Shown here: positions 3,288 to 30,080 of the stretch, piece by piece | Position numbering within the stretch: position 1 is the stretch's first letter | How the letters are laid out: the number at the start of each line of letters is the position of its first letter | DNA from: Magnetococcales bacterium | GTDB taxonomy: Bacteria > Pseudomonadota > Magnetococcia > Magnetococcales > Magnetaquicoccaceae | NCBI GenBank assembly: GCA_015231915.1 | Contig: JADGAR010000008.1 | Coordinates: 60,451 to 93,571 of the forward strand | DNA length: 33,121 bases | Direction: 5' to 3' | The notes under the pieces: generated by a model | What the model saw: the letters and a program-made list of their open reading frames with translations, nothing else | Database searches by the model: none | What the model was told of the DNA's origin: nothing | Translations under genes and position numbers: made by a program

Positions 3288-3872
3288 TCACCTGCCGACC
3301 TCCCGCAGCAGCGCCTCGCCGAAAGGCTCGAGAATCTCCAGCAACACCGGCAAATGATCGGGACAGTGGTTCCGGACGAACTCCGCCTGGCGGGTCAACA
3401 CCCACTGGGCCACTGCCAGACGGGAGAGTTCCGGACTCGCTTTGCCCAGCGAGCGCATCGTGCGGTCCAAGGCCTGGGAAAGCCGGGACAGGGCATTCAC
3501 CCGGTGCAGCGGATCCGCCACCTGACACTTCACCGACTCGATGGCCTCCATGTGCATTTCCAGGTACTCCACCAACAGATCCCCCACCAGGCTCTCCCGG
3601 TTGCATTCGGCCAGCCAGTTGACCGACGCCGCCTGCCCATGATCCCAGTCGCGATTCGCCGCGCGATCCTTGTCCCGCCAGCGCCGCGCTGCGGAGACAG
3701 AGACCCCGTGCGCCCGGGCCGCCTGGGTCAGGTTGCCCCCGTTTTCCCGATAAGCGTTCTTGACGGCTTGTTGTACCTTTTCCGCAAAAATACGATTTTT
3801 AGGTGCGGGTTGAGGGGTTACAATTGATTTGCAATCATCATTCATCCCGGTCGATCCAATTATTGCTTGCAT
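3288..3872 (-). CDS. Mu-like phage DUF1804 family protein (putative small terminase-type DNA-binding protein)
   Basis: About 194 residues. The N-terminal part reads as a helix-turn-helix of the type found in DUF1804 proteins of Mu-like phages: a Leu-Thr-Gln-Ala-Ala-Arg segment followed by V-S-V-S-A-A-R-R-W and a D-W-D near residue 75. The C-terminal part is helical and ends with the family-like L-E-I-L-E-P-F-G stretch. In Mu-like phages such proteins lie with the packaging genes and are thought to act like small terminase subunits; that role is from family knowledge. No large terminase, portal or capsid genes are nearby, so this is an orphan, either a prophage remnant or a domesticated regulator. 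The start is uncertain: ATG at 3872 or at 3845; neither has a strong ribosome site. Confidence 0.65.
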   Translation of the reverse strand: MQAIIGSTGMNDDCKSIVTPQPAPKNRIFAEKVQQAVKNAYRENGGNLTQAARAHGVSVSAARRWRDKDRAANRDWDHGQAASVNWLAECNRESLVGDLLVEYLEMHMEAIESVKCQVADPLHRVNALSRLSQALDRTMRSLGKASPELSRLAVAQWVLTRQAEFVRNHCPDHLPVLLEILEPFGEALLREVGR

Positions 3873-4064
3873 TCATAAAGGAACCATCGCAATCTTTGGT
3901 AATCATGGCGAAGAAATTGCATTAATGTAAAGATGAAGGAATTCCGCCACACGCGCAAAGTGCCTGTTTTTTGCAACAGGCCTGTGCTATGCTCGCGGAC
4001 GTGCGACACCCTCGACGTCGACCGACCCGAATTCTACAAGAAACGCCCAAGAGGTGGAATGACC

Positions 4065-4712
4065 ATGGCAACCAGCGAAGCAGGCAAAAAACTCGGCATT
4101 ATCGGCGCCGACAAGAACTCTGCGGAAATCATCGAACTTTTTTCCCACAATAAAGGCGTGGAAATCCTCTACGTCGCGGATCCGGACTCCTCGGCTCCTG
4201 GCATGGTGCTGGCCAAAAAACTCAATATCAAAACCCTGACCAAGCCCGAAGTTGCCCTGAAGAATTTCAAGCCCGACCTGATCATCGAATGCACCGGCAC
4301 AGCGGAGAGCCTCGCGATGATCACCGAGTCGATCGGGTTCGCCAGTGTCGTCGGTGTCGAGGCGGTCCTGTTGATGAACAAACTCTTCAGCGAGCATCGG
4401 GAATCGGCCAATCACCAGGTGTTCGCCGATCTCGCCGGCGTCCGCCAGGAGATCGACCGCAACACCCGTGATGTCTCCAAGACCCTGCATGGCATCGAAA
4501 AGATCTCCAACGAACTGGAGGTGCTGGCCATCAACGCCGGCATTCAGGCCTCCCGCGCCGGCGAGTTCGGCAAGGGGTTCGCCGTGGTGGCCGGCGAGGT
4601 CAAAAGCACGGCGCGGGTGGCCCGCGACCTGGCCGGCGACATCGACCGGGTGATCAGCGAAATCTCCTCCATGTCCAAAAAGATCGATCAATCCCTGAAA
4701 AAGGTGCTATGA
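4065..4712 (+). CDS. Soluble Rossmann-fold / chemoreceptor signalling-domain hybrid
   Basis: The frame is open from 3933, but GAGGTGG at 4051-4057 sits seven bases before the ATG at 4065, which I choose; it gives 215 residues. Residues ~5-115 look like a nucleotide-binding Rossmann fold: a beta strand with G-I-I-G-A near the start, V-A-D-P-D at the end of the second strand and I-I-E-C-T-G later. Residues ~120-215 are the cytoplasmic hairpin of a methyl-accepting chemotaxis protein, with the conserved tip containing A-I-N-A[18 protein letters not shown]. There is no membrane segment. Inference: a cytosolic receptor that senses a nucleotide, NAD(P) or a metabolite and signals through CheA/CheW. 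The hairpin is very short. Its end overlaps the Mor-like gene by six bases, tail to tail. Confidence 0.7.
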   Translation: MATSEAGKKLGIIGADKNSAEIIELFSHNKGVEILYVADPDSSAPGMVLAKKLNIKTLTKPEVALKNFKPDLIIECTGTAESLAMITESIGFASVVGVEAVLLMNKLFSEHRESANHQVFADLAGVRQEIDRNTRDVSKTLHGIEKISNELEVLAINAGIQASRAGEFGKGFAVVAGEVKSTARVARDLAGDIDRVISEISSMSKKIDQSLKKVL

Positions 4713-5075
4713 GACACTGGAAAGAATCGCATAAATCTGCCGCTCCGTGAGGGCATGATCCCGCGCCAATTGACGTACTCCCTCGCCCGCGTCGTAACGG
4801 CGGACGATCTCGCGGTTGCGGGTGCGCCGCAACAGTTGGGCGGCGCGCACCACGGTCAGGGTCTCCCCGCCGAAGTGCAACGAGAGCCGCTTGGCCTGCT
4901 CATGGCCCAGCAGGGTGACCAGTTTGTGCTGCACCCGCAATTTGCGCGGGATGAAAATCCGGGTGCCGCCGCACTCGTGTACCAGTTTGAGTGCCCCTTC
5001 CCGACCGATCACTTCGGCGATCTCTTCCAGGGATCCGGGCAAATCTTCCTGCAAAATCAAATCCAGTCCGTTCAT
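4707..5075 (-). CDS. Mor/C-type transcription activator (Mu-like)
   Basis: This 122-residue protein matches the shape of the phage Mu Mor/C activator family: an N-terminal dimerisation part with I-A-E-V-I-G and G-G-T-R-I-F-I-P, and a C-terminal helix-turn-helix with R-N-R-E-I, R-Y-D-A-G and L-T-E-R-Q-I-Y-A-I-L. In Mu these proteins switch on middle and late transcription. The ATG at 5075 overlaps the stop of the upstream Gam-like gene (TGATG) and has a GGAGG site eight bases before it, so the two are translationally coupled. A GTG at 5078 is the other possible start. No phage late genes are present for it to control; the target here is unknown. Confidence 0.8.
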   Translation of the reverse strand: MNGLDLILQEDLPGSLEEIAEVIGREGALKLVHECGGTRIFIPRKLRVQHKLVTLLGHEQAKRLSLHFGGETLTVVRAAQLLRRTRNREIVRRYDAGEGVRQLARDHALTERQIYAILSSVS

Positions 5076-5644
5076 CACAACACCTCCTCGCGGTTTGCGA
5101 CCGCATCCATGGGCAAGCCGCGCGCGGCTGCCTGACTCAGGGCAGCGGTTTTCGGTTCATACCAGAACACATCCTTGTCGATGCGATCGACACCCAGCAG
5201 GGCCAGCCTCTCTTCGCTCCAGGTGCGCAAGGCGTCGCGGTTGACATCCTCCCGGACACGGATCGCCCCTCCCTCGCCCAGTTCCTTGATCCGCTCGAGC
5301 ACCTGCGCCCAGGTGCCCCGCCCTGCGGGCCTGACTTCGCTGGAGCGGCGGAAACCGAATGCCCCGAACGTCAATTCGACTCCGCGCCGTTTTTCGAACA
5401 GGGTTTGCTTGTTGAATTCCGCGAAGGCCGACAGGCCGTTCGCCAGGGCCTCCAGGCGTGCCCGGCGCGGTGCGGCGAAGGCCTCGGAGGCCCGTTTGAT
5501 CCGGTCGATACTCTCGTTCATGTCTGCGGCGATGATTTCCAGATTGCGCGCCAGTTGCGCGATTTCTCCCAGTGCGGCATTGGCCTGTTGCAAATCCCGC
5601 ACATGGATGATGTTTTCGGGTTTGAGACGTTTCCTGACAGACAT
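5075..5644 (-). CDS. gam: Mu-like Gam host-nuclease inhibitor / DNA-end-binding protein
   Basis: The protein has 189 residues. The N-terminal ~90 form a long helix rich in Asp/Glu/Arg with an E-I-A-x-L-A-R segment and R-A-S-E-A-F-A; the middle has the family-like G-x-F-G-F-R-R and later V-x-x-D-V-N-R. This matches the Mu Gam family, a Ku-like dimer that binds double-strand DNA ends and shields them from RecBCD-type nucleases. A strong GGAGG lies six bases before the ATG. It leads a two-gene unit with the Mor-like activator. In Mu, gam and mor are early-region genes but not a minimal pair, so this isolated pair is unusual. A possible -35 (TTGACT on the minus strand, 5723-5718) lies upstream, but I cannot point to a good -10. 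Confidence 0.8.
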   Translation of the reverse strand: MSVRKRLKPENIIHVRDLQQANAALGEIAQLARNLEIIAADMNESIDRIKRASEAFAAPRRARLEALANGLSAFAEFNKQTLFEKRRGVELTFGAFGFRRSSEVRPAGRGTWAQVLERIKELGEGGAIRVREDVNRDALRTWSEERLALLGVDRIDKDVFWYEPKTAALSQAAARGLPMDAVANREEVL

Positions 5645-27965: not shown

Positions 27966-30080
27966 TCAGGGCGTATGTGAACCAAGTTTGAAGCAGGCCA
28001 TGGCCTGCACCATCATGCCGGCTTGAGCGCTCAACTCTTCCGATGTGGCGGCCAACTCTTCGGAAACACCCGCGTTTTGTTGCACCGCCTGATCCAGTTG
28101 CTGGACGGATCGATTGATCTCCTCCACCCCGGCATATTGTTGTCGGCTGCACTCCGTGAGGCCCTGAATGCGGGCTGCGGTATCCTTGATATTGGGCACG
28201 AGTTTGCCGATGATGACACCGGCCTGTTCAGAGACCTGGACACTGGATGCGGAGAGTTGGCTGATCTCTCCCGCCGCCACTTGGCTGCGTTCGGCCAATT
28301 TTCTCACCTCGGCGGCCACCACGGCAAACCCCTTGCCATGTTCACCGGCCCGTGCCGCCTCGATGGCCGCATTCAATGCCAGCAGATTGGTTTGCCGGGC
28401 GATCTCTTCGACAATATTGATTTTTGCAGCGATCTCCCGCATGGCTGCAACTGCCTGGTCCACGGCATCGCCCCCCTTCTCCGCATCCTGGGCGGCCTGT
28501 ATGGCGATGGCTTGCGTGGTGTTGGCGCTGTCCGTGCTCATGTGGCAGCCTCCCGCCAACGCCGTCATGGCCGCCGAAGTGACGTCCACGGAGGTCGCCT
28601 GCTCGCTGGTTGCCTGGGCAATCGCTTGCGCGGCATCCGAGATTTCGTTGCTGCCGATGGCGACCTGTTCGGCGGCAGCGGAGATTTCGCCGACCACCTC
28701 CCGCAATTTTTCGACCATATTCCGAATGGCCAGGTAGATGCCGGACGGCTTGCCGGAGGCGTCGAACCGGATGCTCAGGTCACCCTCGGCCACTTGAGCA
28801 GCCAATGCCGCGATCACCCGCGGTTCGCCCCCCACCTGTTGCAGGATGGAGCGGGTAATGAACATTGCCAGCAGAGCGCCAATCACGAGCAGGATCCCAC
28901 TGACGATTTGGACCAAAGTCACGGCGCGTCGGGCCGAGGCTACCGCCGCCTGGGAGGTCTGATCCATATCCGAAGATGCCTCCTTGACCAGGAGGTCCAG
29001 GATGGGTTCCATGGCATGAACGGACGCGCGCATCTTCTCGGTGGCCGCAACGACCTCCTGCCCCTTGCTCACCAGTGCCAGAAAGGCCTGTTGATACTGC
29101 TGCGAGACCTGGGTCAGCGTGGTTTTGTCGTCCTCCGCAATGGCTGCGGTCGCGACCTCCTGTCGCAAATCTTCCAGTTTTTTTGTTACACTTGCGACAT
29201 ATTTCTTATCCCCGCGCAACAAGAAATCCTTTTCGTCCTTGCGCATTTCAAGATAAAGCCTGGCCAGCCCAGGAACATAACGAGCCTTTAAAACAGCCTC
29301 GATTTCATGAGCCAGATTGCGGAACGTATCGGATTTCGTCCCGACGGCTTCTGGCGGAAGCGCGATGAACTCCTTGAAATTTTTCAGGTATTGATCCGCC
29401 TTGCCGGTGAGTTCCTTTTTGATCTCGTCCGACAAGGTGGATTCGGCCACATCCGTGGCAAACCGCTTGACGAAACCTTCCAGTTGCGTGACATATTTTT
29501 GATCTTTCCTGAGTTGAAAATCCTTTTCCGCTCGACGCATTTGCAGCAATGTTACGTAGATGGCCTCGGTGTCGTAGTGTTTGATCCGTTTTTCCATCTC
29601 GTGGGCCATGGCGCGGAATTTTCCCTGCAGCCCTGATTTGTGGTCCAGACCTTGTTCCGTTTCCATGGCGGCCAGAGTCAGAAAGGCAGTCAGGTACTCC
29701 CCGATCCTTTCTTTGATCTCGCCATCCAGTTCAACACTTTTGCCATCCCCGTTGGCCAGGGCTGTCTTGAGCATCTCGTCGGTGGTCTGCCGCATGGCGA
29801 CGACACGCTGCTTGACGGCTTCGATATATTTGGACTCTTTGCGTAACAGGAAATCCTTTTCCGCGCGTCGCGCTTCCAGCATCAGGTTATGCAAATGCAA
29901 TGCGCTGGATTTTTCCACCTCCGTCCGACCGAGAACATCGTCCGTGAAGGTGGCAAGGGAACTGGTCAGAGTGGTGTTGTACTGTGCCACAATTCCCAGA
30001 AACAGCACGCCAATCAGACCAAACCCGACACCAATCAATGTCTTCAACTTAAGATTATGCAAACCGATATTATTAATCAC
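27966..30080 (-). CDS. Methyl-accepting chemotaxis protein with three repeated EKDF sensor segments
   Basis: About 704 residues from a GTG at 30080, chosen because AGGGGGG lies just before it and the sequence then begins I-N-N-I-G-L; an ATG at 30098 has no ribosome site. A membrane helix lies at ~12-33. The periplasmic part carries three copies of an R-R-A-E-K-D-F-x-L-R-K-x-x-K-Y-type motif near residues 65, 177 and 275, the sequence mark of four-helix HBM-type sensor domains. A second membrane helix follows (~385-410), then a HAMP region and the signalling domain with the tip [16 protein letters not shown]-x-G-K-G-F-A-V-V-A near 575. HBM receptors sense organic acids in known cases; the ligand here is unknown. 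It converges on ftsB. Confidence 0.95.

Follow-up and report, generated by a model that had tools for sequence, protein, structure and literature searches.

Intracellular metabolic sensing in taxis is mostly attributed to domains such as PAS, globin and hemerythrin. In the CetB/CetA pair and in the Aer-type FAD-PAS energy-taxis receptors such sensing has been shown to reach an MCP tip, and the sensor there is of the PAS/FAD kind with a membrane anchor. Soluble receptors with an MCP hairpin are represented by Tm14 of Thermotoga (PDB 3g67) and by the YfmS-like proteins of Bacillus. CetA2/CetB2 of a magnetotactic bacterium have been described in a review (PMC13401364).

In this work we analysed a stretch of 33,121 nucleotides from a Magnetococcales bacterium (the window; positions below refer to it unless a contig is named). 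For the product of one of its genes we propose what was shown for the Cet and Aer receptors, intracellular metabolic sensing relayed to an MCP tip, but with a Rossmann domain as the sensor and no membrane part. The open-access literature gave no account of MCP or GGDEF proteins with a Rossmann/NAD sensor, and the words "Rossmann" and "nicotinamide" are absent from a census of c-di-GMP sensors (PMC8846402). Our main reading, which we regard as probable, is that of a cytoplasmic, non-methylated chemoreceptor in which a metabolite- or dinucleotide-sensing Rossmann domain is wired into a minimal MCP hairpin.

Gene and protein layout

The gene occupies positions 4065–4712 of the forward strand and encodes 215 amino acids followed by a stop codon. 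Homologs begin their alignment at the Met of position 4065 and an ATG at 4059, six bases upstream, is mostly unconserved; 4065 is therefore the likely start. A probable ribosome-binding site, AGAGGTGG, is recognisable in the sequence at 4050–4057 (+ strand), 7 bases 5' of this ATG. Sequence profiles, the AlphaFold model and comparison with PDB structures agree on both halves of the protein, which confirms a Rossmann domain (aa 1–97, positions 4065–4355, + strand) joined to a two-helix MCP hairpin (aa 98–215, positions 4356–4709, + strand). In the AlphaFold model (24 homologs as input, mean pLDDT 87) strand 5 of the Rossmann domain (aa 95–97) runs straight into the first MCP helix (aa 98–164, 67 residues) with no linker between them, and a turn at aa 165 leads to the second helix (aa 166–214, 49 residues). 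Every segment of the model is assigned, with no linker, HAMP, PAS or membrane segment among them. Pfam returns PF00015 for aa 115–212 (E=5e-19, 69.2 bits vs the gathering cut-off of 34.6), a match common to all 24 family members, and nothing beyond it on the 215-aa protein, HAMP, PAS and membrane domains included; the absence of membrane segments is read from the model and Pfam.

The first-pass annotation had proposed a Rossmann fold fused directly to a very short MCP tip, with no membrane segment, HAMP or PAS domain. The N-terminal fold was borne out by structure prediction, family profile, Foldseek and VIA, and modelling did not turn up a non-Rossmann fold. The lack of the other three elements agrees with Pfam and with the model. 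Regarding the fusion, the direct junction and the minimal hairpin stand, but the tip is a complete one without a methylation bundle, its arms counting 67 residues before the turn and about 48 after it. Methylation helices are absent from both arms in the AlphaFold model, and the arms are too short for methylation regions of the Tsr type. In Tsr the methylation sites sit further from the tip than these arms reach. As methylation helices are absent, the receptor cannot adapt by itself; going by the model, it is a chemoreceptor-like protein and not methyl-accepting in the strict sense.

The Rossmann half

In the AlphaFold model aa 8–97 have the β-α-β topology of a Rossmann fold, in which five strands alternate with helices, and the N-domain modelled alone gave the same fold (pLDDT 86.5). 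PDB matches and a profile-profile match to a sensor-domain family, described below, agree with this assignment. A single-sequence Pfam search with this half gives a weak hit only (GFO_IDH_MocA, E=0.14). The profile of 24 homologs searched against PDB finds the NAD domain of acylating acetaldehyde dehydrogenase (E=4.7e-5), and several of the 24 homologs individually reach NAD-domain Pfam families. Acetaldehyde dehydrogenase and GFO/IDH/MocA enzymes also rank top in Foldseek (E=7.6e-5), and VIA superimposes aa 6–109 on 4lrs_B with Z 11.8 (acetaldehyde dehydrogenases, Z 11.6–11.8). The catalytic C-terminal domain of these enzymes is absent and the MCP hairpin stands in its place. The receptor thus has its fold and sequence signature in common with the NAD domain of acylating acetaldehyde dehydrogenase and with the Rex repressor, but it has neither a catalytic nor a DNA-binding part and uses the Rossmann domain alone as input.

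Alignment places GIIGADKNS (aa 11–19, positions 4095–4121, + strand) at the site of the dinucleotide-binding glycine loop. GxGxxG does not hold in this protein: in GADKNS the first glycine, G14, is kept and two of the three are missing (G16 replaced by D, G19 by S). Among 24 relatives G16 is kept in 17 and G19 in 12. The homolog of Magnetococcus marinus MC-1 has an intact loop, GGGAEG. The acidic residue that ends strand 2 in the model, D39 (positions 4179–4181, + strand), is invariant (24/24) and occupies the place that the NAD ribose-binding Asp has in Rossmann folds. NAD(P) binding is plausible for the sensor family and, because the loop reads GADKNS, doubtful for the protein of the window. 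It is in precisely this protein that the NAD reading is weakest.

The sensor domain on other outputs

When the N-domain profile was run against 249 Pseudomonadota genomes, the same domain was found at the N-terminus of proteins from families f18 and f42. Pfam gives the architectures Rossmann-GGDEF, Rossmann-PAS-GGDEF, Rossmann-GAF-HisKA-HATPase-REC-REC-GGDEF and a 123-aa stand-alone domain; a Rossmann-GGDEF protein occurs also in the Magnetococcales genome G026 (L148). In L148 and in proteins of other Pseudomonadota families (L138, L141, L146, L143 and L147) the common sensor domain continues from strand 5 into a signalling helix as it does in the receptor, but c-di-GMP synthesis or a kinase serves as output, and most of them have the full glycine loop. 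Receptor-linked and other-output sensor domains align in hhalign with 99.8% probability (E 1.8e-27), and the A4 profile, built without receptor-linked sequences, finds the window protein at E 2.3e-16. Pfam has no model for the sensor family, its nearest models staying mostly below their cut-offs, and against PDB the family profile reaches acetaldehyde dehydrogenases and Rex with at most 31 bits (Rex, E 2e-4). Most members of the family keep GxGxxG. Sensor domains that stand alone, 123 to 144 aa long and with no output (L149 in G195, and G388:C1:410805-411128), may be separate subunits.

These profile comparisons show, at the level of sequence, that the Rossmann half is a member of a coherent family of sensor domains which fronts GGDEF, PAS-GGDEF and GAF-kinase outputs and also another MCP tip. 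The latter is found in a 260-aa protein (L039) of the clostridium Acetoanaerobium noterae, with the Rossmann domain directly on the MCP tip and no TM or HAMP; its identity to the window protein is 27% over aa 9–214. It differs in its intact GxGxxG, canonical tip and longer hairpin, and it comes from another phylum. By this alignment the Rossmann-MCP layout is not unique. On plasmids, the full protein matched mostly ordinary MCPs by way of the tip, and the Acetoanaerobium match alone covered both halves convincingly; the other three plasmid loci retrieved (L040–L042) comprise one annotated 1401-bp MCP gene and two without annotation. With the clostridial Rossmann domain alone, the sole plasmid match was the domain itself. 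Overall, the sensor fold looks like a wider, undescribed input module and a general means of reading the metabolism of the cell.

The matches to Rex (E 2e-4) and to NAD-dependent dehydrogenases invite the reading that the receptor is a taxis switch which responds to NADH in the manner of Rex and reports the redox state of NAD(H) or NADP(H). GxGxxG in most family members and the invariant Asp of strand 2 agree with it, and in some clades a gene for a thioredoxin-like [2Fe-2S] ferredoxin and MsrB lie nearby (identities assigned by eye). Nevertheless, Rossmann folds take many other ligands and the window protein has GADKNS, and we consider a redox switch rather unlikely.

The hairpin and its tip

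VIA aligns the hairpin (aa 97–215) with MCP structures at Z 12–13, namely Tm14 of Thermotoga (3g67, Z 12.9, rmsd 1.6 over 119 residues), which is the best structural match, and Tsr (1qu7, Z 12.0), and it also places the hairpin on the E. coli core signalling unit. Since helical hairpins can reach Z values of up to about 13 for generic reasons, the PF00015 match carries more weight. Tm14 differs from the protein described here in its longer hairpin and in lacking a Rossmann domain, and the tip sequence of our protein is atypical.

The signalling tip (aa 147–183, positions 4503–4613, + strand) carries the sequence NELEVLAINAGIQASRAGEFGKGF. It is near-invariant across the order and is an outlier in its own genome, differing from the other 35 MCP tips, nearly all of which read ...QTN(M/L)LALNA(A/S)IEAA.... 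The tip was aligned by eye to Tsr, whose residue numbering is used here. The first-pass annotation had made its proposal depend on CheA/CheW contact residues, and most of them are kept: counterparts of Tsr N381, R388, E391, F396, V398 and E402 are present, but at two array-contact positions N376 is replaced by E (E152, positions 4518–4520, + strand) and E385 by Q (Q161, positions 4545–4547, + strand), where the other MCPs of the genome, with few exceptions, have E. The counterpart of Tsr E391 is the hairpin-turn residue E167 (positions 4563–4565, + strand; turn at residue 165 in the model). The two replacements speak against the main reading: they are at positions that matter in Tsr, and the protein may not join normal arrays. 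An atypical tip of this sort would fit either a modified array receptor or one with a dedicated partner.

Several receptor classes coexist in the genome, a large MCP group having AAGAGE, not AARAGE, at the place of Tsr R388 (L003, L004, L161–L163, L165, L169–L171, L173, L174, L176 and L177). An ordinary membrane-type MCP with repeated N-terminal motifs of the type MRR.EKDF.LR.D.KY lies in the window at about 28242–28442 (− strand).

Distribution and conservation in Magnetococcales

Of the 48 Magnetococcales genomes searched, 33 have the receptor gene, which is a single copy in the genome of the window. It is missing from 7/7 genomes of the sister genus and from most of family f8. Genome G028 alone carries a second, divergent copy (L091 on G028:C22, about 3307–4041, − strand), which combines a strongly diverged Rossmann half with a tip of the same unusual type, NELEVLAINAGIQASRAG-FGKGF. 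A third sensor-domain match in G028 lies at C8, in a frame of 345 aa. A search of 84,980 species with two 8-residue hairpin segments returned Magnetococcales alone, and the viral contigs searched contain no relative of the protein. The first-pass annotation called the layout uncommon. The soluble Rossmann-hairpin protein is real, but a genome search finds it order-wide in Magnetococcales and also in Acetoanaerobium, with the sensor driving other outputs as well.

Conservation differs between the two halves. Identity to the window protein over 87 aa of the hairpin is 94–100% in most genomes and 85–92% in three, and in the Rossmann half it drops to 32–48% across relatives. Over the 87 hairpin codons nearly all relatives differ from the window by 20–52 synonymous and 0–7 amino-acid changes (6 and 0 in the nearest relative, 34 and 14 and 26 and 13 in the two most divergent). 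dN is 0–0.034 in the hairpin vs 0.035–0.63 in the N-domain. With a frozen hairpin and antisense ORFs across the gene, constraint at the DNA level came into question; it was rejected in view of the many synonymous changes. The hairpin is under extreme purifying selection. As a control we took the corresponding 87 residues of an ordinary MCP from the window; their best match across the order is 84–92%. The hairpin is more frozen than ordinary tips, yet its conservation is of the same order, and in part it is ordinary for canonical MCP hairpins of the same genomes.

A tip type so far confined to Magnetococcales could suggest a role in magnetotaxis, linking receptor arrays to magnetosomes. However, the magnetochrome marker PF18509 occurs in 48/48 genomes, including the 15 without the receptor gene, 7/7 of the sister genus among these, and the receptor was not seen near magnetosome genes. 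Receptor presence does not follow PF18509, and this co-occurrence test led us to reject a magnetosome link; a magnetotaxis role is very unlikely.

Gene neighbourhood and candidate partners

The receptor is flanked in the window by three relatives of Mu-phage genes on the − strand, encoding a DUF1804 protein (3288–3872), a Mor-type activator (4707–5078) and Mu-Gam (5075–5644). Their order around the receptor is constant across the genus of the window, and the receptor recurs in family f13 together with Mor, Gam and an S24/LexA-like repressor. These neighbours look like a domesticated Mu remnant. In other Magnetococcales families the receptor sits among unrelated genes. The Mu-like flanks in the genus of the window raise the question whether the gene is a decayed chemoreceptor or functionless phage cargo. 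Hairpin dN stays near zero over order-wide divergence, and such purifying selection contradicts decay or cargo, as do the unrelated neighbours in other families; we find this explanation exceedingly improbable.

A small thioredoxin-like [2Fe-2S] ferredoxin-like gene, identified by eye, lies near the receptor in several other families (L085, L083, L081, L084, L086, L082, L078 and L101), at some loci with GGDEF-like, MsrB and ApaG genes.

No che genes lie beside the receptor in the loci read, which span 12–17 kb for most; this counts against the main reading. The host genome has 5 CheA-dimerisation matches and about 20 CheW matches, which are candidate partners, and none of them adjoins the receptor in these loci. 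A rival possibility is that the hairpin works with a partner of its own outside the arrays, or with a single private CheA/CheW pair, and that the Rossmann domain tunes this interaction. In its favour are a tip unlike the 35 others of the genome, a stretch of 87 residues that hardly varies throughout the order, and the same tip type in the G028 paralog despite its very different N-domain. On the other hand, the PF00015 match and the structural fit to array receptors are good, the majority of contact residues is retained, and no candidate partner gene adjoins the receptor. Altogether we see a private partner as possible but on the unlikely side.

Proposed mechanism and its meaning

According to our main reading, that of a cytoplasmic chemoreceptor, the protein would form a homodimer through a four-helix bundle. 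Binding of a ligand to the Rossmann domain, or its loss, would shift strand 5 together with the first helix, and the tip would pass this shift to the CheA/CheW complex and so change kinase output. Having no room for methylation helices, the receptor would be a direct reporter of state or would depend on neighbouring receptors. The ligand of the family is probably a nucleotide or an adenine-dinucleotide-like metabolite; in the lineage of the window, where the glycine loop has decayed, the ligand may have changed or binding may have been lost.

A broader reading can be put forward only tentatively. It holds that a modular Rossmann input feeds nucleotide or redox state to chemoreceptors, diguanylate cyclases and hybrid histidine kinases, and that the nearly frozen Magnetococcales tip is private, has its own partner and works without methylation-based adaptation.

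If our proposal is true, a soluble dehydrogenase-type fold on a bare tip would link metabolite or nicotinamide pools directly, and without a membrane part, to the flagellar motor. With a common input on c-di-GMP enzymes and kinases, one question about the ligand would span several pathways. The minimal hairpin, devoid of methylation helices, would moreover be a natural test of the least part of an MCP that is needed to control CheA.
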